Assembly: GCA_023261505.1 (NCBI GenBank)
Contig: JAHFOV010000018.1
Location: forward strand, 1 to 36,294
Direction of reading: 5' to 3'
Length of the DNA: 36,294 bases
Source: Planctomycetota bacterium
GTDB lineage: Bacteria > Planctomycetota > Brocadiia > Brocadiales > Bathyanammoxibiaceae
The notes beneath the pieces were generated by a model. The model was given only the letters and a program-made list of their open reading frames with translations. It made no database searches and was not told the DNA's origin. Below, in pieces: positions 25 through 33,984 of the stretch. Position 1 is the first letter of the stretch. Every line of letters begins with the position of its first letter. Position numbers and translations under genes: made by a program.

Positions 25-1050
25 ATGATACCCCTAAAAAAGTTTCAAGGTTTGACAGTGCTTTTTGTACTGCCGCTGCTATTTTACCTCCTGCAAGGGG
101 CCACATACTCTTTTGCGAATGGGGCAGAGCCCAATGAGATGACTTGCCCTCAGCAGGCTTGCAAATGCAATCAAAATATGACAAAAGCGGAGGCCTCTAG
201 TGCGACGGAGGGAAACCAGTGTGCATCGATTACTTCGGAAGTGTGCCTTAAGAATGAGGATTGGGAAAAGTTGCAGCGCGCGGTCCATGAAACGGTAGAG
301 AAGCATCTTGTTGGCAGAAAGTTTTTAGACGTTTATGGCCCTCTTGGGGCAGGTACGCAGTGTGTGCCTCTAGACACCTACGATGTACCCTCCAGGGGCG
401 GTATTGATATGCTTGGCGAAGGCAACCAGGCTGTACATCCTTTGAAGAGGGATATTGCCCACATACCACTCATTTATAAAGACTTCTGGCTCTTCTACAG
501 GGATATTGAGGCAACCAAAAAGTCTGAGACGCCTCTGGATTTGAGTGCTGCAACAGGGGCGGCTGTGGCTGCGGCTAGGAGTGAGGATGACCTGATTTTC
601 AATGGTTCGGCTGAAATGGGTATGGCTGGACTTTTGAATGTTAACGGCAGGAACGTTCTGAAACTTAGCGATTGGTCTATAATAGGGAATGGTTTTCAGG
701 ATGTAGTAACGGCGGTAGAAAAACTGATCAGCCTGGGTTTTAACGGCCCCTTTGCCCTAGTAGTAAGTCCGAGGCTATACGCCTACCTAAACAGGGTTTA
801 TGAGCGCACTGGCCAACTCGAGATAAGAGGCGTGCAGGAGCTTGTAAAAGGGGGAGTGTTCCAGAGCTATTTGTTCAAAAAGGACGTTGCCCTTGCAGTA
901 GCCTTAGGCAGGCAGAACCTAGACCTGGCCGTGGGCACCGATTTTAAAGTAGAGTACTGGGGGCCTGCGAATCTTAACCACCGTTTCAGGGTAGTAGGAA
1001 CTTCAGTGCTCAGGATTAAATCCCCTCAGGCCATTTGCACCCTAGAATAG
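25..1050 (+). CDS. Encapsulin (linocin/HK97-fold shell protein) with N-terminal signal peptide and Cys-rich extension
   Basis: 341 aa ORF, RBS gaggagg ~8 nt before ATG. Core 'LKNEDWEKLQRAVHETVEKHLVGRKFLDVYGPLGAGTQCVPLD...' and '...DLIFNGSAEMGMAGLLN...ALVVSPRLYAYL...VALAVALGRQNLDLAVGTDFKVEYWGPANLNHRFRVVGTSVLRIKSPQAICTLE' match encapsulin family 1. Hydrophobic N-terminus (LTVLFVLPLLFYLLQGATYSFA). Confidence 0.88.
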   Translation: MIPLKKFQGLTVLFVLPLLFYLLQGATYSFANGAEPNEMTCPQQACKCNQNMTKAEASSATEGNQCASITSEVCLKNEDWEKLQRAVHETVEKHLVGRKFLDVYGPLGAGTQCVPLDTYDVPSRGGIDMLGEGNQAVHPLKRDIAHIPLIYKDFWLFYRDIEATKKSETPLDLSAATGAAVAAARSEDDLIFNGSAEMGMAGLLNVNGRNVLKLSDWSIIGNGFQDVVTAVEKLISLGFNGPFALVVSPRLYAYLNRVYERTGQLEIRGVQELVKGGVFQSYLFKKDVALAVALGRQNLDLAVGTDFKVEYWGPANLNHRFRVVGTSVLRIKSPQAICTLE

Positions 1051-1053
1051 CCC

Positions 1054-3687
1054 ATGTTCAAGCGGTTAGGGATTTACTTTCTTGTGATGTGGGTGTGCCT
1101 CTTCCTCGGCTTTCAAAGGGTGTATGCCGCGATTCCCTACCTTACAGGAAAGAATGGAGTAGTGGAGCTGGAGATGGAGGCACGGCCTGTAGGTATAGAA
1201 CTTAGGCCCGGGATATACTTTGACGCCTGGGGATACTGCCTGAAAGGGCAAATGCCTGCCGTACCTGGCCCCACGATAAAAGTAAGAGAAGGGACGAAGC
1301 TTAGAATACATTTAACCAACAAATTAACAGTCCCTGCCTCTGTCCATCCGCATGGAGTAAAGTACACTATTGCCAATGATGGTGCACACATTGCGGGAAA
1401 TCCTACAAGTATTGTGGAGCCTGGGAATTCCAGAATCTTTGAGTGGGACACTACAGGCACACCAGGCACATGGTTTTACCACACCCATGCCTTTGAAAGG
1501 GGCGGGGAAGAGGGATTGTATCGAGGGTTGTGGGGGGCCCTTATTGTTGAACCCAAAGAGGGTGACCCTAACCCTCCGGACAAAGAGTTTGTGGTCTTCA
1601 TGCACACCTTCAAGGTAAATGGAGCGGAGTATAACACCTTTAACGATAAATCCGCAGACATGGAGTTTATGAAAGGAGATAGTTCCGCCTTTCCTGGAGT
1701 GGTATGGCGGGCAAAGATGGGGGAGAAGGTTAGGTTTCACCTCATAAACTCTTCAGAAGAGGTGCACACCTTTCACACTCACGGACACCGCTGGGTGGAT
1801 CAAGCGAGTGGTCACCTCATAGACAATATTGGGTTAGTACCTTTTACTTCTTATGTCCTGGAGTTTGTTGCGGGAGAAGGCGTTGGGCCAGGTAACTGGT
1901 CATTTCACTGTCACTTCTTTGAACATATGATGGCTGGTATGTCTGGAGTCTTTGTGGTAGAAGAGGCAGATGCAAAAAAGCCTACAATAAAAAGCTCCCC
2001 ACCCCTAGAAGGGGCAAATGAAAACACTCAATCCTCCTTAAAATCCTCTGTCCCAACGTCTGAAAAAGGGGCTGAAGCTACCTCGCTAGCATCTTCCCCC
2101 GAGATACCCCCTCCTACCCTCGGAGTTCCTCAGCGCTCCTTCACCTATCCGGAAGCGTCGCTAAAAAAAATGTACGAGGAATTCGTTGGTCTAAAACAGG
2201 GCGATGGCCCCTGGGGGGATGTATATAAACCTATAGCTTTCTACAAGTATTTTAATCCCGCAAGGCATTACTCTCCACCCGACAGCCCGTACTATAAAGA
2301 ACTAGTGAAAAAATATAAAGCTAGCCAGTGCGTTGAATGTCACGAAGAGGTCACCCCAGGGGTAGTGACCCAGTGGAAGAGATCCAACCATGCTAACACG
2401 AAGAAAGATACAGAAACCGCTCGAGAAACTAAAGAAATAGAAGAGCTTATAGGCAAAAAGATAGACCCCTGGACACCTGGCACAAAGAACGGGGTCTATT
2501 GCTCTTATTGTCATGGACAAGACCATGAACATCTCTATATGCCTACGGCAGATAATAGCTGTGGCGTCTGCCATCCGAAGCAGGCGAGGGAATTTGCCAA
2601 GGGTCGGGATTATGGGAAACCCAATCACCCTCAGAGCTGGGAAGGAAGCGTATCTACCCCATGGTACGCTGAGAATTATAGACGCGGCGAAGGCACAGCT
2701 ATGGTGGGGTGCGACCAGTGCCACCAGAATATGTCCTCATGTGATGACTGCCACTTCAACCACCGCTTTTCCTCTGCTGAGGCTCGCCGCCCAGAGGTTT
2801 GTGCCGGTTGCCACATGGGCCCAGACCACCCGGACTGGGAGAGCTATGAAATGTCCAAATGGGGCATCCTCTATCACACGACAGGGGATAAATGGGATTG
2901 GGAGAAAAAACTCTCCCAAGTTGTTCCTGGACAGGATTACCAGGCTCCCACCTGCCAATACTGCCACATGTATGTAGGAGACAACCGATGGGAGATGAAC
3001 GTGGAAACGAAGGGTATCTGGCGGATGGGGCTTATTCCACCTGAAGGGGTTGAATTCAAATCCCGTCTCAAAGATTTCCCTTACGGGGTAAAGATTCCAC
3101 CCATGGATAAGAAATTAGAGATTTACTCCTCAGAAAGTAAAAGGAGGCGGCAACTCTGGGTGGAGTTATGTGCCAGGTGTCACAGTAACAGTTTTTCCAG
3201 TATGTGGCTGGACGCCCTTGACCAATACATGTTTACTGCATGGAAGAGGCTAGACAGGGCACAACAGGTACTTGAAGAAGTTTTTGCCAATAACCTTGTT
3301 CAGCCGACACCAAAGGCAAGGCCCCCATTCCCACTATGGGAGCTAATGGTACAAAGGTTGGGTTCAGAAAAACTTGGCCCAAAACTTTACGAACTCTTCA
3401 AGGAAACTAGCGGGCACCTTCCCGTTATAGGACCTGTCCTTGGTGCCTACGGCATCTTTACCCAGGCTAATGGAAACCCTAGCTTAATAGAAAGAGAGTA
3501 TGTAGAGATGTGGTTCTGGCAGCATTTACAAGGTTACAAGGGCACCGCCCACGCCCAGCAGGATATAAGCTGGTGGTGGGGTACCGCCCAGACCATGGGG
3601 AAGCTGACACGGATACAAGCTGAGGCAAGAAAGCTACGAGACTTCAAGGCCCTGCAGGAGGCATTACAAAAGACAAATAGTTATTGA
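1054..3687 (+). CDS. Two-domain multicopper oxidase fused to octaheme HAO-like cytochrome c (putative encapsulin cargo)
   Basis: Signal peptide; MCO ligand motifs HPHG, WFYHTH, HTFHTHGH, HCHFFEHMMAGM; Pro/Ser-rich linker; then 8 CXXCH motifs (CVECH, CSYCH, CGVCH, CDQCH, CDDCH, CAGCH, CQYCH, CARCH) in HAO-like spacing. Confidence 0.9.
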   Translation: MFKRLGIYFLVMWVCLFLGFQRVYAAIPYLTGKNGVVELEMEARPVGIELRPGIYFDAWGYCLKGQMPAVPGPTIKVREGTKLRIHLTNKLTVPASVHPHGVKYTIANDGAHIAGNPTSIVEPGNSRIFEWDTTGTPGTWFYHTHAFERGGEEGLYRGLWGALIVEPKEGDPNPPDKEFVVFMHTFKVNGAEYNTFNDKSADMEFMKGDSSAFPGVVWRAKMGEKVRFHLINSSEEVHTFHTHGHRWVDQASGHLIDNIGLVPFTSYVLEFVAGEGVGPGNWSFHCHFFEHMMAGMSGVFVVEEADAKKPTIKSSPPLEGANENTQSSLKSSVPTSEKGAEATSLASSPEIPPPTLGVPQRSFTYPEASLKKMYEEFVGLKQGDGPWGDVYKPIAFYKYFNPARHYSPPDSPYYKELVKKYKASQCVECHEEVTPGVVTQWKRSNHANTKKDTETARETKEIEELIGKKIDPWTPGTKNGVYCSYCHGQDHEHLYMPTADNSCGVCHPKQAREFAKGRDYGKPNHPQSWEGSVSTPWYAENYRRGEGTAMVGCDQCHQNMSSCDDCHFNHRFSSAEARRPEVCAGCHMGPDHPDWESYEMSKWGILYHTTGDKWDWEKKLSQVVPGQDYQAPTCQYCHMYVGDNRWEMNVETKGIWRMGLIPPEGVEFKSRLKDFPYGVKIPPMDKKLEIYSSESKRRRQLWVELCARCHSNSFSSMWLDALDQYMFTAWKRLDRAQQVLEEVFANNLVQPTPKARPPFPLWELMVQRLGSEKLGPKLYELFKETSGHLPVIGPVLGAYGIFTQANGNPSLIEREYVEMWFWQHLQGYKGTAHAQQDISWWWGTAQTMGKLTRIQAEARKLRDFKALQEALQKTNSY

Positions 3688-3866: not shown

Positions 3867-4346
3867 TTATTCCTTTTTTACTATTCCCTTTTTGGGAATA
3901 GCAGTCCACTCTGACCAGGGTTCCCAATCTACAAATCGGGTCTTGTTAGAAAACCAATATTCTGTACCCTGCCTGGTGCGCGTGCAGACAAGGGCCTCCG
4001 AGGTGCGGGTTTGCCTCTGGGTTACCTGTCGGTAGTAAAAACAATCCACCTGGTGGAAGTTTATATTCTCTTTGTCCCCCACCTCGATTAATTCCAGGTC
4101 GGCTGGCAGGACCTCCCCTTTCTGGAGCTTTTCCTCGGGAACTGCCACCTCGTACGTGACCCTCTCTTCCACCTTCAATGTAGACATTTTTGGGCTATAT
4201 TTGAGATCTGGAACTGGGATAGGTGGCGCCTGTCCACTCATGAAAAGATCACGGCTATAAGTACCCATGGACAGCTTGCTTACCCCAAAAATAAGGATAC
4301 CCATGGCAGCTAGGGCAAGGAAAAATTCTTTTTTCTGAAACCTCAT
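3867..4346 (-). CDS. Hypothetical secreted/membrane-anchored protein
   Basis: 159 aa ORF with N-terminal hydrophobic segment (FFLALAAMGILIFGVSKL), RBS-like aggaggag upstream; no recognised family. Confidence 0.65.
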   Translation of the reverse strand: MRFQKKEFFLALAAMGILIFGVSKLSMGTYSRDLFMSGQAPPIPVPDLKYSPKMSTLKVEERVTYEVAVPEEKLQKGEVLPADLELIEVGDKENINFHQVDCFYYRQVTQRQTRTSEALVCTRTRQGTEYWFSNKTRFVDWEPWSEWTAIPKKGIVKKE

Positions 4347-8848: not shown

Positions 8849-10954
8849 TTATTCTGGATAGCCCTCCGAGGGAGGTAACTGTCCCTTCTCTCCAATGGTT
8901 TTGCGGCTGATACCCGTGGCATCCTTAGCGGAGGCCTTGACTTTGTTATACTGTACCAAATAGCTTTCTGCCTCCGCCTTCATTCCCTTTTCCTCGTAAA
9001 TCTTCGCCACATTGTAATAGGCATCTGCATAGGTTTTATTTTGCTCTAGTACCTTTTGATACTCCTTAAGGGCCTCATCCAATTTTCCTCTCATAAAGTA
9101 TATAGTAGCCACGTTAAAACGGGAGTGCACATGATTGGGGTCAAGCTCCAGGGCCTTCTCACTCTCCTTAAAGGCCTCTTCTACCATCCCTTTTTTTCCG
9201 TAGATTACTCCCATAAGATAATGGGGCTCTGCTAGATTTGGGTCCGTTCTTAAAGCCAGTTCAAATTGAGAGAGAGCCTCGTCCAACATACCCTGGGCAT
9301 AATAAAGTAGCCCAAGGTTAACCCGACCCTGGGGATAATCTGGATTCACATCCAAAGCCTTTTCATAAATTTTAATAGCCTCCTCGTAGCGCTCTTGCTC
9401 CTGCAGGGCCACAGCCAGATTGAAATAGGCCTTATCATAAGAGGGCTTAAGTTCTATACAACGTTCATAGTAAGGTATGGCCCTTTCCGGGAGATTCAGG
9501 TCGTGATTGGCCACTCCAAGGTTATAATGGATGTTAAAATTATAGGGGTCCAGATTCAGGGCCTGTTTGTATTCCTCTATTGCAGCTTCGATATAATTTC
9601 TCTTGTGGAAGTAAAGCCCTAATTTAAGGTGAGCAGCAGGATTATCTGGTTCCCTTTCTACCGCCTGTTTACAAATCGTATATTCATCCTGAGGTTCGCC
9701 TATCCTTTTATAGGTTTGAGTAAGTTTCTCGTGGGCCTCAGAGTGCTTCGGGTTTATAGCTATCACCTTCTTAAAAGCATCAGTGGCTTCTTCCAGCATA
9801 CCCTTCTCCATATAAGCTACCCCAAGCTGATAAGAGGCATCTGCATAATAACTACTTAAAGAAACGGCCTTTTTATAAAGCTCTATCGCCTCGTCAACCA
9901 TGCCTTTTTTGCATAAGGCAATACCCAGGTAAACATAGCCTTCTGAATTTTCAGGGTCCGTCGCCATAGCCCTTTGCATGGCCTCAATGAAATCATCGGG
10001 CTGGCTAGGATTACACTTTACAGCCTTCTTAAACGCTGCTATTACCTGATCGTAACTTCCCATCTGGCTGTAAATTAAACCCATGCTAGTATAGGCCTCT
10101 GCGTAATTTGGGTTCAACTCCGCAGCCTTTTTATATTCCTGGAGGGCCTCATCCAAAAGGCCCTGACCATTATAAGCAAGACCAAGATAATAATGACCCT
10201 TCGGCATCCCAGGGGCTAATTTTATAGTCTGTTTGTATTGATTTATTGCCTCAGTTTCTAGCCCCTTTTTTGCATACGCAAGGCCAAGGGCGAAACAGGC
10301 CTCCGGATCTGAAGCCTCTTCTTCTACAGCCCTCTTTAGTTCTGAGATGGCTTCACCTAACATGCTTAGTTGCGAGTATGCCAGGCCTAGGTTTTTATGG
10401 CATCCTTTTAATTCTGGATTTAACCCAAGGGCCTTCTTGCAGGTGCTTATTGCTTCTTGTGGATTTTCTAGCTTAAGATAGGCCAGGCCCATGGTATTGA
10501 AGGCCTCCGGATAGTTGGGCTTGAGTTTCAGAGCCTGCTTGCATTGAGTTATAGTCTCATCATATTTTCCCTGCAGGTTAAGGATTACAGCTAGTTTTTG
10601 ATAAGCTTCTGCCATGCCAGCATCTACCCTTATGGCCTGATGATATTCGTATGCTGATTTCTCCAGGTCCTCTAATTGTAAGTAAACATCCCCACAACGA
10701 AGATGAACCTCTGCAAATTCTGGATAAAGTTCCAGGGCCTTTTTGTATTCTTCTATCGCCTCCCGATGCATGCCCTTTTTTGCATAAGCATTGCCCAGGT
10801 TTAGATAGACCTCTGGGTCAAAGGGGTTTCTCTCTGCCAATGCCTTGTATTTTGTTATTGCCTCATCTGGGCTTGCAATCTGTTCACTTGCCAGGCTATG
10901 CCTGCTTCCAAAAGAGATACACAGAACAAAAATAATAATTAACCAGCAGCGCAT
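8849..10954 (-). CDS. Secreted TPR-repeat protein (~18 TPRs)
   Basis: Signal peptide; repeated 34-aa units (A.AY..LG..Y...G..EEAI..YKKAL.L.P); RBS ggaggagtaggag upstream. Confidence 0.92.
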   Translation of the reverse strand: MRCWLIIIFVLCISFGSRHSLASEQIASPDEAITKYKALAERNPFDPEVYLNLGNAYAKKGMHREAIEEYKKALELYPEFAEVHLRCGDVYLQLEDLEKSAYEYHQAIRVDAGMAEAYQKLAVILNLQGKYDETITQCKQALKLKPNYPEAFNTMGLAYLKLENPQEAISTCKKALGLNPELKGCHKNLGLAYSQLSMLGEAISELKRAVEEEASDPEACFALGLAYAKKGLETEAINQYKQTIKLAPGMPKGHYYLGLAYNGQGLLDEALQEYKKAAELNPNYAEAYTSMGLIYSQMGSYDQVIAAFKKAVKCNPSQPDDFIEAMQRAMATDPENSEGYVYLGIALCKKGMVDEAIELYKKAVSLSSYYADASYQLGVAYMEKGMLEEATDAFKKVIAINPKHSEAHEKLTQTYKRIGEPQDEYTICKQAVEREPDNPAAHLKLGLYFHKRNYIEAAIEEYKQALNLDPYNFNIHYNLGVANHDLNLPERAIPYYERCIELKPSYDKAYFNLAVALQEQERYEEAIKIYEKALDVNPDYPQGRVNLGLLYYAQGMLDEALSQFELALRTDPNLAEPHYLMGVIYGKKGMVEEAFKESEKALELDPNHVHSRFNVATIYFMRGKLDEALKEYQKVLEQNKTYADAYYNVAKIYEEKGMKAEAESYLVQYNKVKASAKDATGISRKTIGEKGQLPPSEGYPE

Positions 10955-11063: not shown

Positions 11064-12848
11064 TTAGTGACCATGGCCCGTGTGCTTGTCGTCTTTTGTA
11101 GGCTCATGTTCGTGTTCTAGCTTGCCCTCTACGCCATGGGCAGGGTGCTCATGCTCGTGAATCATGTGCTTACCAGCCTTCATACCAAGTTCGGCCAGTT
11201 TCTTCTCGATGTATTCCACTTCCTCAGCAGGGGCATGGTGTGTATCCAGCCAGCCTGGTTCGGGACAAAGATCGAAGATGGTCTTTCCGGGGTACTCCCT
11301 GACAATCTTCCAACCTGTGAGCTGGTCAAGCCACTCGCCATGCTTCCAGTAGTCCTCAGGAACCCAGGTGATTCCAACCTTCTTCTCCAGGGCTGCCAAT
11401 CTCCTGGCCCTTGAGGCCTGAGTCTTGACGTCTACAAGCCACCTGTCCATACCGAACGAACCATCACTGTAAGTGGCGTCGTTCCAAGAGCCGTGGAAAA
11501 TACCCTTGAAGATATAGGTCTGGAAGTAACCAACGCTCTCAAAACAAAGTCTTTCTACATTGGAGCAGTTGGACATCCTGAACTCACCGGATTCGCCAGT
11601 CCCACCACCAAACTCATTACCATGGTAGGCACCGACCTTAAGACTCCAGATGTGCTGACCAGACCAGTCAGGGGCCAGGTCTTTAGGCATGGGGTCAAGT
11701 ACACCATCCCTGTAGAGATCCTCAGCGACCTTGAAGGTCTCACGATACTTCAGGGAGGCATCCTTTACTGACTCGTCGCATGCCTGGAGGATTTCCCTCG
11801 CAAACCTGGGGGAGTGACAGTCGTCACAAACAGACACCCAGCTATCCCTCTTTTCCTTCCAGAGCGGTGCACCTCTGTCACACATGGACATACCCATACT
11901 GGTGTATACAGTGCACAGCTTCTGAACGTTGTGATGCCCACCACGCATGTGGCAATAGGCGCAGGTAGGACCAGTGTAGTCAGCATCGGCGAGCTTCTTC
12001 TCCCAGTCAAACAGCTTGGGGTCCCACTTGCCTGTCTGATACACTACACCATGGATGGAGATATCATAAGCCTCCCAGTCCCTGTGGTCCTTACCCCAGT
12101 GACAGGTCTTGCACTGCTCGCTTTTGCGGGCGGTCCTGGGGTCAAAGCGATGCCTGGCGTGACAGGTTGAGCAACGCTCCTCTGAACTGGTATGGCAGAA
12201 TACGCAACCAGCGGTGTCTCCAGGGGGCCTCTCAATGCTCCATGCACACTCTACCTGAGCAAAACTGGAACAAGAAGCATGAGAACCAATACCGCCCTGT
12301 TGAGATTCAGTGTACTGCTGGGCATGACAATCTTCTGTGCCGCAGGTCTTGGAACTGGGCATGTGAAGCTTCTGATGGTCAGAACCGTGGCAGGTGGGAC
12401 AACCCACAGCCGCAGGCTCTACCTTAGCATGTCTACTCTTCTTCCAGTCCCTAACTATCCCAGGGGTCATCACTTCGTGGCAACCAAGACACTGCTCGTT
12501 GCGGAACACACCCTTTATGGGGTTTGGTGGACGAAGTTCATCCCTGTTGTACATACCATCTGGGATATAATAACGATAGGCAGGTAAGGTTCTGTAGAAC
12601 TTCCCGTACTTACCTGGCCAGGGTGGCCCGTCTTTGGGTGCTCCCATGTACTTTGCGCCTAGACCAGAAAAGAATATCTTTCCAGAATTATCTGGATCTC
12701 CAGGCATACCGTAGACTTCATGGGGTACCCAGTGGGTGATAATCTCTACTGCATAGACATCACTGTTGGGGCCACCGTTGAAGGAATAAATAAAGAACAA
12801 GCTTAACACTAAACCCAAAAAGAATAATACCTTCAACGATCTAGGCAT
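11064..12848 (-). CDS. Octaheme HAO-like cytochrome c (7 CXXCH + 1 CX4CH) with His-rich C-terminus
   Basis: CLGCH, CPTCH, CGTEDCH, CVFCH, CSTCH, CKTCH, CAYCH, CDDCH. Start chosen at MPRSLKVLFFLGLVLSLFFIY (RBS ggaggaa 8-10 nt upstream); ORF is open to 12932 so an upstream start is possible. Confidence 0.92.
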   Translation of the reverse strand: MPRSLKVLFFLGLVLSLFFIYSFNGGPNSDVYAVEIITHWVPHEVYGMPGDPDNSGKIFFSGLGAKYMGAPKDGPPWPGKYGKFYRTLPAYRYYIPDGMYNRDELRPPNPIKGVFRNEQCLGCHEVMTPGIVRDWKKSRHAKVEPAAVGCPTCHGSDHQKLHMPSSKTCGTEDCHAQQYTESQQGGIGSHASCSSFAQVECAWSIERPPGDTAGCVFCHTSSEERCSTCHARHRFDPRTARKSEQCKTCHWGKDHRDWEAYDISIHGVVYQTGKWDPKLFDWEKKLADADYTGPTCAYCHMRGGHHNVQKLCTVYTSMGMSMCDRGAPLWKEKRDSWVSVCDDCHSPRFAREILQACDESVKDASLKYRETFKVAEDLYRDGVLDPMPKDLAPDWSGQHIWSLKVGAYHGNEFGGGTGESGEFRMSNCSNVERLCFESVGYFQTYIFKGIFHGSWNDATYSDGSFGMDRWLVDVKTQASRARRLAALEKKVGITWVPEDYWKHGEWLDQLTGWKIVREYPGKTIFDLCPEPGWLDTHHAPAEEVEYIEKKLAELGMKAGKHMIHEHEHPAHGVEGKLEHEHEPTKDDKHTGHGH

Positions 12849-12974
12849 GTAAAAAAATTTCCTCCTTTCCAAAAAAGATCTTCCCTCCATAGATCCTTTT
12901 AACTCTCCTCCTTTCCCCAATTGCACTACCACCTCCTTTCAGTTGACAGTGTTCTCCAAAAAATTGAATGATTT

Positions 12975-13482: not shown

Positions 13483-14115
13483 CTATGCCGTGGACTTTAT
13501 TTTTTGTAAGTTATAAAGTCTTCTCACATAATCTAGGGTATCTATCTCACATACGTTTTTATCATTCCTTAGGGATTGTATTCTGGGAAACCTCAAGACA
13601 TAGCCGCTTTCGTGTCTCTGGCTCTTCTGGATGCCCTGGAAGGCCACTTCTAGCACTACCAAAGGTTCTACAAACCTGAGGCCGCCCATGTCTCTTATTG
13701 TGTGTTTGAGGAAGAAGTTTGTTAGGTGCTCTATCTCCTGGTCAGTTAGTCCTGAATAGGCCTTGCCAATATTTACAAGCCTTTCGCCATCCCTTACGGC
13801 AAAGGTGTAATCTGATAGTAGCCCTTTTCTCTTTCCATGCCCGTACTCGGCGGCTGTAACCACTACATCAGGGGTGGCAAAGGCCAGGGTCTTGCCCTGA
13901 GACAATACCAAATCCCTTGCCCTCTTAAGGACGTAGTCAGGGGCAGAAAACACACACCTGGCATGCCTAAATTCCTCAAGAGAAAGGAGCCTCTCTGTGG
14001 CCTTCTCAGAGCCAATAAAATTAGGAATTCTGCCAAAACACGGCGTGGGGAAGTCAGCAATGCCCCTATCTTCCAGGTAACTCCATACAAACCGCCTTAC
14101 CTCTTCTTTGTTCAT
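13483..14115 (-). CDS. Chimeric protein: 5-formyl-THF cyclo-ligase (MTHFS/MTHFSD)-like N-terminus + C-terminal OB domain of ATP-dependent DNA ligase
   Basis: N-term 'VWSYLEDRGIADFPTPCFGRIPNFIGSEKATERLLSLEEFRHAR' (MTHFS/MTHFSD-like); from aa ~84 'VVVTAAEYGHGKRKGLLSDYTFAVRDGERLVNIGKAYSGLTDQEIEHLTNFF...EPLVVLEVAFQGIQKSQRHESGYVLRFPRI' (DNA ligase C-terminal domain). No KxDG nucleotidyltransferase motif. Confidence 0.78.
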   Translation of the reverse strand: MNKEEVRRFVWSYLEDRGIADFPTPCFGRIPNFIGSEKATERLLSLEEFRHARCVFSAPDYVLKRARDLVLSQGKTLAFATPDVVVTAAEYGHGKRKGLLSDYTFAVRDGERLVNIGKAYSGLTDQEIEHLTNFFLKHTIRDMGGLRFVEPLVVLEVAFQGIQKSQRHESGYVLRFPRIQSLRNDKNVCEIDTLDYVRRLYNLQKIKSTA

Positions 14116-30749: not shown

Positions 30750-31850
30750 ATGTGGAGGGAATATTTGAAGGAAGGTAGTTCTACCGGTAAGGGAAAGGTA
30801 GGGTATCTGTCTATACATGTCCCAGAGGAGATAATTATTGCGGCCGGTAGAATACCTTACAGAATCCTGGGTAGGGGGAAGCCGGTTAAGCGGGCTAACG
30901 CCTATCTGCCTAAGACCTTCGACCCTTATGTATTGGACAGCCTGGAGGGGGCTATAGAAGGGGAATATAGGTTCCTTGAAGGTGTGATAGTGGCTAATGT
31001 TAGCGATGCCCACCGCAGGTTGTATGATGTTTGGCGGCTTTATGGTGAGCCCAAGAAGGTCTTTTTCCTGGATGTACCTAAGGGGTCGGATGCATTAAGG
31101 GTGAAGACCTTCTCCCTCGCCCTTTCTGCCTTGATTAAGGAGATGGAAGCGGCCCTGGACACAGAAATAGGGCACAAGGCCCTAAAAGAGGCCATAGAAA
31201 TTTGTAATGAGACCAGGTTGCTGTTACAAGACCTGGCAATACTGAGAAAGCAAAAAAAGCCGCCCCTTTCAGGGCAGGACTTCTTTGAGGTTGTATGCTT
31301 GGCCCTGAGGAACGATAAATCTCATGTGAATCAGGCGCTGAGGAAAGTGCTTCAGGAACTGAAGGGGTCGCAGGGTAATGGTGTCATGCGGCCAAGACTT
31401 ATGCTCATGGGGGGCCTGCTGGGTTCTCCGGAGCTAATATCCCTGATAGAGAGATTGGGTGCCCAGGTTGTTTGCGAGGATTTATGCACTGGGATACAGT
31501 ACTTCTCTAACCCGGTAGAAAATGGCAGTTCCCAGACGCCATGTCCGCATGAGGCAGATAACGCCTTGACTGCCCTTGCAAGGAGATACCTTAACATCCC
31601 AACTGCTAGGATGGTAGATACTGAGGCTCGCTGGAGGTATCTCCTTAAGATGGCCGAGGAGTACAATGTAAACGGAGTCATTTACTTCGCCTTGAAGTTT
31701 GATGACATCTACCTCTTTGAGTATCCATTTCTAAGGAATAAATTCCAGAAGACTGGTTACCCTATTTTGCTAATAGAAGCAGAAAATTTTCTGACCAATG
31801 TTGGTCAGATAGAGACAAGGGTGCAGGCCTTTACGGAGATGCTTGCTTAG
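30750..31850 (+). CDS. 2-hydroxyacyl-CoA dehydratase D-component-like protein (HgdB/FldB/BcrC superfamily), cluster Cys ligands apparently lost
   Basis: GYLSIHVPEEIIIAAGRIPYRI, EGEYRFLEGVIVANVSDAHRRLYDVWR, GVIYFALKFDDIYLFEYPFLRNKFQKTGYPILLIEAE. Confidence 0.87.
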   Translation: MWREYLKEGSSTGKGKVGYLSIHVPEEIIIAAGRIPYRILGRGKPVKRANAYLPKTFDPYVLDSLEGAIEGEYRFLEGVIVANVSDAHRRLYDVWRLYGEPKKVFFLDVPKGSDALRVKTFSLALSALIKEMEAALDTEIGHKALKEAIEICNETRLLLQDLAILRKQKKPPLSGQDFFEVVCLALRNDKSHVNQALRKVLQELKGSQGNGVMRPRLMLMGGLLGSPELISLIERLGAQVVCEDLCTGIQYFSNPVENGSSQTPCPHEADNALTALARRYLNIPTARMVDTEARWRYLLKMAEEYNVNGVIYFALKFDDIYLFEYPFLRNKFQKTGYPILLIEAENFLTNVGQIETRVQAFTEMLA

Positions 31851-31854
31851 TAGG

Positions 31855-31917
31855 GGCGAACCTGCATGTTCGCCTCACGTAATTTGATTTTATTTGGGCA
31901 GACACACAGGTCTGCCC
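31855..31917. repeat. Two adjacent hairpins between dehydratase subunit genes
   Basis: GGCGAAC..GTTCGCC (31855-31874) and GGGCAGAC..GTCTGCCC (31896-31917). Confidence 0.7.
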
Positions 31918-31939
31918 CTACATTTAGGGCAGGTTAATT

Positions 31940-33211
31940 ATGACTGTTGTAGAGGAACAGAGGAAAAGGCAGAGGGAATTTTTCGCTCTCCAATTCCAGA
32001 AACGTCTAAAAAGATCCCCTGGTTATTCTCCATTAAAGAGTTCCCAGGCCAGGGAAAGGGCTATGTTCCGCCTCTTTCTGGAAAGTTTCAGGGAGGGTTC
32101 AATAGTGGTATGGAAGAGCACCTTCGTCCCCTCTGAGATTATATACTCCCTTGGTGCCATTCCCCTTTACATTGAAAGTTTCAGTGCTGTGGCCGCTGCC
32201 ATAGACATATGCCCACCTATGCTGGACGCCTCAGAGAAATGCGGTTACTCCAGGGACTCCTGCAGCTTCCTGAGGGCCGTCTTGGGGGCCTCACACAAGG
32301 ATATACTACCCAGGCCGGATGCCTTGGTATCTACGTCTTATTACTGTGATGGTGACCCCAAGATATTTGACATCCTTGCTGAAGAATACAAGAAACCACA
32401 TTTTTACCTCCACGTGCCTTACGCAGCGGAGGCCGAGTGGGCGGTAGAAGCCCTAGCAGAACAGCTTGAGGAGATTACACTGGAGCTAGCCAGGCTAACT
32501 GGTAAACCTTTTGACAGAGAAAGACTCTCTGAGATTATCCAGAATTCCAATGAGGCCAGAAAGCACCTCCTAAAGGCTAACGAATTGAGAAAGCACATCC
32601 CCGCCCCTATGCTGGGCTGTGAGGCCATAGACTACATTGCCTCTATTACCCAGCTCTGGGGCTCCCCCGAGCTGGTTAGGGCCTCAAAACTCCTTTGTGA
32701 AGAGCTGGAAGAAAGGATAGAAAAAGGCGTTGCGGCTGTGAATCCGGAGAGGTTTCGCCTCTTATGGTGCCACCTCAGGCCTTACTACAATGACGAGGTT
32801 TTTAATTATCTGGAGGGTCAACATAAGGCAGTAGTGGCCTTTGAGAGCATAAACCTGATTACCTGGAAGGAGATGAACCCTGCGAAACCTTTTAGGAGCC
32901 TGGCAGAAAAGCTCCTTGCCAATCCGGCAATAGGTCCATATGAGCGGATGAGCAGGGAGGTAGTAAGGATGGTGAGGGATTATCAGATAGACGGCGTTAT
33001 ATGGATGTCCCCCTGGGGCTGCCGCCACTTCAACAGTATGGCTCAGCTCATTAAAGATGATCTCCGCACGGTGTTGGATGTGCCTTTTTATATACTGGAT
33101 TTGGAGTGTATAGATAAACGGAATTATTCAAAGGAGCAGGTTAGAACACGCCTGGACGCCTTTATAGAAGTTTTGGGAGGAAGAAAAGAGGGATGTACAC
33201 AGCGGGGATAG
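31940..33211 (+). CDS. 2-hydroxyacyl-CoA dehydratase / benzoyl-CoA reductase-type subunit (cluster Cys retained)
   Basis: VPSEIIYSLGAIPLYIES, SEKCGYSRDSCSFLRA, STSYYCDGDPK, DGVIWMSPWGCRHFNSMAQLIKDDL. Confidence 0.9.
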   Translation: MTVVEEQRKRQREFFALQFQKRLKRSPGYSPLKSSQARERAMFRLFLESFREGSIVVWKSTFVPSEIIYSLGAIPLYIESFSAVAAAIDICPPMLDASEKCGYSRDSCSFLRAVLGASHKDILPRPDALVSTSYYCDGDPKIFDILAEEYKKPHFYLHVPYAAEAEWAVEALAEQLEEITLELARLTGKPFDRERLSEIIQNSNEARKHLLKANELRKHIPAPMLGCEAIDYIASITQLWGSPELVRASKLLCEELEERIEKGVAAVNPERFRLLWCHLRPYYNDEVFNYLEGQHKAVVAFESINLITWKEMNPAKPFRSLAEKLLANPAIGPYERMSREVVRMVRDYQIDGVIWMSPWGCRHFNSMAQLIKDDLRTVLDVPFYILDLECIDKRNYSKEQVRTRLDAFIEVLGGRKEGCTQRG

Positions 33212-33984
33212 ATATTGGCTCTGTTTCTACCGAAGTAGTTATTTTAGGGGACGAAGGGGTTAAGGGTTATTCTGTCCTGGATTCTCAGGTAGATATAGAG
33301 AAAACGGCTGAGGAGGTGCTTGATATAGCACTGGATATGGCCAGACTTAAAAGGACAGATATAGCCTACGCGGTGGCTACGGGCTATGGGAGGAATAACA
33401 TCCATTACGCCAACAGGCAGGTCACTGAAATAACCTGCCACGCCATTGGTGCACATTTCCTCTTTTCCAATACCAGAACCATCATAGATATCGGTGGTCA
33501 GGATAGTAAGGCCATTGCCTTGACAAATGATGGCCAAAGTGGACCCAGAGTCGTGGATTTTTGCATGAATGACAAGTGTGCGGCGGGTACGGGTCGTTTT
33601 CTTGAGGTCATGGCCAGGGTGCTGGACGTGGGCATAAAAGAGTTGGGACCCCTCTCTCAAAAGTCTACTACGGAAGTAAACATCTCCAGTATGTGCACAG
33701 TTTTTGCTGAATCAGAGGTTATTTCCCTCATCCACCAAAAGTACGCCAAGGAGGACATTATTAGCGGCCTTCACACGGCCATCGCCCGCAAGGTGTTAAG
33801 CTTAGTCCAGAGGCTGAATATCAAAGAAGAAGTGACCCTAACAGGCGGGGTAATGAAGAATATCGGTGTGGTTGAGAAGCTTTAGGAAGAGTTAGCCCCC
33901 AGGGAGGTTAACCTACCCGAAGAGCCTCAAATAGTCGGAGCCATTGGGGCGGCAATTTTGGCCAGGAAATATATTTCCTCGTAA
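33193..33984 (+). pseudogene. BadF/BcrA/HgdC-type activator ATPase interrupted by in-frame TAG at 33883-33885
   Basis: YTAGIDIGSVSTEVVIL, IDIGGQDSKAI, NDKCAAGTGRFLEVMARVL, TGGVMKNIGVVEKL*; same frame continues EELAPREVNLPEEPQIVGAIGAAILARKYISS* (the conserved family C-terminus). Could alternatively be a functional truncated CDS ending 33885. Confidence 0.8.

Follow-up and report, generated by a model that had tools for sequence, protein, structure and literature searches.

The two adjoining genes at positions 25 to 3687 of the window (the whole stretch of DNA analysed here, 36,294 nt in length) are best explained, taken as a whole, as an anammox-type family-1 encapsulin operon of the cytochrome-less form, in which the shell confines a redox enzyme composed of a multicopper oxidase fused to an octaheme HAO (MCO-HAO). 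We assign this reading a probability of about 0.62. It is very probable that the first gene encodes an encapsulin and that the MCO-HAO protein is the cargo that it would physically enclose, and assembly of the particle would probably take place in the anammoxosome.

The shell gene (25..1050, + strand) encodes a protein of 341 aa, and the predicted cargo gene, coding for the exported fusion (1054..3687, +), one of 877 aa. Only 3 nt separate the TAG of the shell from the ATG of the cargo, and both ORFs share one frame. A strong ribosome-binding site (GAGGAGG) was found at the shell start, and no obvious one of its own was seen at the cargo start. Since 13 of the 19 loci in which the cargo follows the shell have the same stop-NNN-ATG spacing, the arrangement, together with the missing ribosome-binding site, fits translational coupling, and the two genes are presumably co-transcribed as one transcript. 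Stop-codon read-through joining shell and cargo was also considered, as the two are in the same frame in many loci, and found no support: the stops are mixed but mostly TAA, and the joined protein would carry the cargo's signal peptide internally, which makes read-through unlikely. The window begins at base 1 of its contig and includes only 24 bases ahead of the shell start, so that further genes of the operon may lie beyond the contig end. Upstream of the shell, 13 related loci have a gene for a secreted TlpA-like thioredoxin, in most of them close by; the window's contig ends too early for such a gene to be seen. A search of the rest of the genome for these upstream neighbours gave no inositol-phosphate synthase, and the only thioredoxin matches were weak and on another contig. 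On the other side, a small secreted-looking protein of 159 aa with no family match (3867-4346, - strand) is convergent with the cargo gene.

The protein encoded at 25-1050 is a family-1 encapsulin shell behind an export signal. Its residues 73-341, the HK97-type core (241..1047, +), resemble encapsulin models and solved encapsulins much too closely for chance. PF04454 aligned with residues 75-324 (1.3e-59; 202 bits, cut-off 24.3), the family-1 encapsulin equivalog NF041155 scored 243 bits (3.2e-72; cut-off 100), and the Myxococcus EncA structures in the PDB matched at 3e-77, the match beginning at residue 73. A fold prediction for the shell, made from a two-row alignment, was of poor quality (pLDDT 33). 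The HK97 fold is common to encapsulins and to phage capsids, and the ORF gave a weak match to Major_capside, below the cut-off, so that a phage HK97 capsid protein might be suspected here. The equivalog score far above its cut-off and the export signal both argue against this, however; no phage or viral record was matched when such records were searched with the shell, and no phage structural genes were found in the window. The capsid reading was rejected for lack of any such match and has, in our estimation, a practically negligible probability.

Both the shell and the cargo have N-termini that look like Sec signals, which suggests that both are exported. The predicted signal peptides, called by hydropathy and charge only, cover residues about 1-31 of the shell (25..117, +; ending in ...YSFA|NGAE) and about 1-26 of the cargo (1054..1131, +). 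Each has a positive start, a hydrophobic 15-residue core and a plausible signal-peptidase site, with Kyte-Doolittle values of 2.44 in the shell (at most 1.61 elsewhere in the protein) and 2.34 in the cargo (at most 1.59 elsewhere). The signal region of the shell is absent from cytosolic encapsulins. These results bear out the sequence-only reading, which had described a shell ORF with an encapsulin core lying 3 nt upstream of a copper/octaheme fusion ORF, with export signals on both; the C-terminal sequence that it gave for the cargo was likewise correct.

A spacer of about 41 residues, rich in Cys, separates signal and core of the shell (118..240, +; residues 32-72, delimited in an alignment of 19 shells), at the position where most Brocadiaceae relatives have the diheme domain. 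At least one CxxCH is present in the N-terminal domain of 12 of the 19 long shells in this alignment; the window's shell has none, in the spacer or elsewhere, and thus lacks the diheme cytochrome that defines the cEnc subtype. In the shell tree, midpoint-rooted with a root that serves for drawing only, the cytochrome-less shells of Scalindua, Loosdrechtia and the window branch outside the diheme shells, a pattern that would fit a diheme domain acquired later and lost again in some cases. Two loci have more than one shell gene: in L043 (G040) a cytochrome-less and then a diheme shell stand in tandem, and in L038 (G021) a 167-aa shell fragment lies upstream of a diheme shell. Mixed shells may exist, or may have existed.

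The copper part of the cargo (1156..1968, +; residues about 40-310) is a two-domain multicopper oxidase. Its best matches in the PDB are two-domain laccases (1.6e-37), with ceruloplasmin a weaker match, and in the alignment with the laccases all four T1 ligands (H238, C286, H291, and M296) and all eight trinuclear-cluster histidines (98, 100, 143, 145, 241, 243, 285, and 287) are present. A laccase reading had been raised earlier for Kuenenia (PMC6934571). The T1 cysteine, Cys286, lies in domain 2, within HCHxxxHxxxxM, and the NirK model TIGR02376 scored 54 bits against a cut-off of 296. On these two grounds, a NirK copper nitrite reductase was rejected and the label "NIR" is unsupported for the copper part, for which the usual name of nitrite reductase is misleading. 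The copper site is not intact in all of the relatives. Ligands are eroded and eight hemes kept in loci L048, L049, L050, L051, and L054 (from g13, g16, Loosdrechtia and one Scalindua): in four of these fused proteins the cluster ligands are down to between 4/8 and 6/8, and the Loosdrechtia cargo has 7/8 cluster and 3/4 T1 ligands. Because these five have lost copper ligands and yet keep the hemes, O2 reduction is not the conserved role everywhere. No clear pattern linked the loss of the cytochrome to the loss of copper ligands among the relatives compared.

A low-complexity linker (1969..2100, +), variable in length and sequence among relatives, joins the copper part to the octaheme HAO part (2101..3669, +; residues about 350-872). 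The latter has exactly eight CxxCH motifs, at residues 426, 483, 503, 553, 563, 583, 634, and 706, and its nearest structure is the Kuenenia HAO-like protein 6h5l (9.1e-153), which we take to be kustc0458. In the region of the cross-link tyrosine, the cargo reads SWWWG where the window's own hydrazine dehydrogenase (HDH) reads TYSDG, Trp replacing Tyr. With eight heme motifs and this substitution, the HAO part belongs to the reductive, tyrosine-less type. Eight CxxCH are found in every one of the 17 cargos whose HAO part is complete enough, those with an eroded copper cluster included. Moreover, the HAO parts of the 17 fused cargos long enough for a tree form one clade against the stand-alone HAOs (support 100/100), and for this reason the MCO-HAO fusion probably arose once.

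The host is an anammox bacterium, as indicated by a hydrazine dehydrogenase in the window about 7 kb downstream (11064-12932, - strand; 1206 bits, cut-off 900) and by the hydrazine synthase alpha subunit present in the genome. Its family (f1) is separate from f3 and f4, which would correspond to Brocadiaceae and Scalindua, respectively. Other genes of the window include a large TPR protein adjoining the hydrazine dehydrogenase (8849-10954, -), the C-terminal part only of an ATP-dependent DNA ligase, which looks truncated (13483-14115, -; 210 aa), and two proteins like the 2-hydroxyglutaryl-CoA dehydratase D component with a BadF-type ATPase (30750-33885, +).

The association of the two genes was followed in 62 genomes of the order, a shell being counted above the PF04454 cut-off and a close MCO homologue at E <= 1e-100. 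Each was present in 20 of the 62, the same 20, and neither in the other 42 (Fisher p 1e-16, a value that ignores shared ancestry). In all of the 20 shell genomes the copper-domain gene adjoins a shell gene, and wherever the contig of a shell locus also carries the cargo, the two stand side by side; the second shell locus of G040, L043, is on a separate contig without cargo. A second copper oxidase, distant from the first (about 35% identical, E about 1e-32), is distributed independently of the shell. Variations in the arrangement were seen in Scalindua, where one genome has the cargo before the shell (L051) and another has the copper part alone beside the shell, with no HAO (L055). One scan, directed at named genomes, yielded only Candidatus Loosdrechtia aerotolerans as a relative. 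No hydrazine synthase match was found in four of the 20 shell genomes, all of genus g9, and we read this as assembly loss, because other members of g9 have it. The exact co-occurrence and adjacency of shell and copper domain across the 62 genomes are new here. The pairing of an encapsulin with a putative MCO-HAO cargo in an anammox bacterium, proposed from the sequence alone, is thus supported by its co-occurrence (20/20), by the host and by the identity of both genes.

How the cargo would be loaded is less evident from its tail. As had been remarked before, no classical targeting peptide is apparent at the C-terminus, and none was detected when the tail was compared with those of stand-alone HAOs and of relatives: the end of the cargo coincides with that of stand-alone HAOs, and nothing extends beyond the fold in the copper-only form of Scalindua. 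Such a peptide is usual, although not universal, in family-1 encapsulins, and anammox cargos often have none (Tracey 2019). A TIGS motif was once proposed as the targeting peptide of the RIFCSPHIGHO2 relative (Tracey 2019); we rejected TIGS-like motifs as specific signals, given that IGSL or IGQL occupies that place in stand-alone HAOs. Because the tail matches those of stand-alone HAOs and the motif is shared with them, loading would have to use something other than a C-terminal targeting peptide. A tentative proposal, to which we give rather long odds, is that a luminal N-terminal arm of the shell (the diheme domain or the Cys-rich spacer) binds to the copper domain once both proteins have been exported. 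If true, this would differ from loading by the known C-terminal peptides.

The following scheme is proposed for the operon. Shell and cargo would be made from one transcript and cross a membrane by Sec, on whose far side the HAO part would receive its c-hemes and the MCO part its copper. Inside the anammoxosome, the shell would then enclose the MCO-HAO enzyme, with loading independent of a C-terminal peptide and probably dependent on the copper domain touching the inner face of the shell or its N-terminal arm. Within the enzyme, the eight hemes would wire the HAO active site to the laccase-type copper site. Electrons could be supplied by nitrogen intermediates or small cytochromes. Their acceptor could be either O2, which the trinuclear copper would reduce to water, or an N-oxide, with the tyrosine-less heme as the site of reduction. 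The most likely function is a confined reduction of O2 or N-oxides in the anammoxosome, that is, a redox detoxification, for which we infer both the substrate and the route of the electrons. O2 reduction at the copper site as a main activity is conceivable, but we would not count on it.

Roles proposed previously for these particles comprise detoxification, nitrite reduction, aromatic oxidation, and iron storage (PMC6934571, PMC8346489). The cargo could be a nitrite reductase, its HAO part reducing nitrite to NO or hydroxylamine and its copper part only passing electrons, in which case the shell would confine a core step of anammox. This would agree with the tyrosine-less HAO closest to 6h5l, with the retention of eight hemes in all of the 17 sufficiently complete cargos despite the eroded copper cluster, and with the formation of NO from nitrite reported for kustc0458, as cited in PMC11897245. 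That activity is, however, weak and disputed (PMC11897245), one Scalindua genome keeps the copper domain alone beside the shell, and the system is missing from most of the order, for which reasons we regard a nitrite reductase as unlikely, if the strongest of the rivals. Less probable still is a particle that stores iron, the copper part oxidising Fe(II) and the shell retaining the mineral within the anammoxosome. Iron-rich anammoxosome particles of ~25 nm were linked earlier to encapsulins (PMC6934571, PMC8346489), and multicopper oxidases related to ceruloplasmin, here the weaker match, can be ferroxidases; but the operon has no ferritin-like cargo, an eight-heme domain has no reason in simple iron storage, and several relatives have lost copper ligands.

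The two proteins might also be merely co-expressed, with the shell empty or holding other content and MCO-HAO a free soluble enzyme. The missing targeting peptide and the tail indistinguishable from that of stand-alone HAOs would be expected in that case, and Scalindua shells assembled alone (Tracey et al.). Against it stand the perfect co-occurrence and adjacency over 20 genomes, the 3-nt spacing conserved in most, and the fact that shell and cargo stay together even where the gene order differs (L051), and we consider simple co-expression quite improbable, a little more so than iron storage. We thus favor the encapsulin with confined MCO-HAO. A large share of fixed nitrogen is removed by anammox, and the locus bears on the role of the exported protein shells of this process. 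It combines a complete copper site with a cytochrome-free shell and comes from a family of the order to which the well-studied freshwater genera do not belong; this architecture lets the hypotheses on the copper site, the hemes and the loading be tested separately. What gives the locus value, besides this experimentally tractable architecture, are the clear-cut co-occurrence and the tests made on the ligands and the tail.

The pairing itself is not new, as the sequence-only reading had acknowledged: encapsulin/MCO-HAO pairs are already known (Tracey 2019; Giessen 2021, including the Sec signal), and shells without the cytochrome domain have been published too. Encapsulins with NIR-HAO cargo and T = 3 shells have been described; proteomics of the anammoxosome reportedly detected the encapsulin protein, and relatives were noted to carry a Sec-like signal (PMC6934571, PMC8346489). 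In the window, as in the cEnc and NIR-HAO system of freshwater anammox bacteria (Kuenenia, Brocadia, and Jettenia, with kuste2479-type cargo), an anammox genome has its shell gene immediately before that of an MCO/NIR-HAO fusion. Signal peptide, eight-heme HAO part and host group are likewise shared, whereas the diheme cytochrome domain of the freshwater shells is absent here. Closer in this respect are Planctomycetes bacterium RIFCSPHIGHO2_02_Full_50_42 and Brocadia caroliniensis (Tracey 2019), with a cytochrome-less shell and an NIR-HAO fusion. The RIFCSPHIGHO2 system nevertheless differs in sequence, in the length of its cargo (867 aa, against 877 in the window), in the TIGS motif, not present in the window's cargo, and in a nearby myo-inositol-phosphate synthase, not found in the window's genome. 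The encapsulin of Scalindua rubra is also cytochrome-less and stands beside the same type of copper domain, but its neighbour gene is the copper part without HAO. Among solved proteins, two-domain laccases (e.g., 8aip and 3t9w) have all of the T1 and trinuclear ligands of the cargo, and the tyrosine-less 6h5l of Kuenenia is the nearest relative of its heme part. The latter is a stand-alone HAO, without copper domain or shell gene, whereas in the window laccase-type and HAO parts are fused to each other and paired with a shell.
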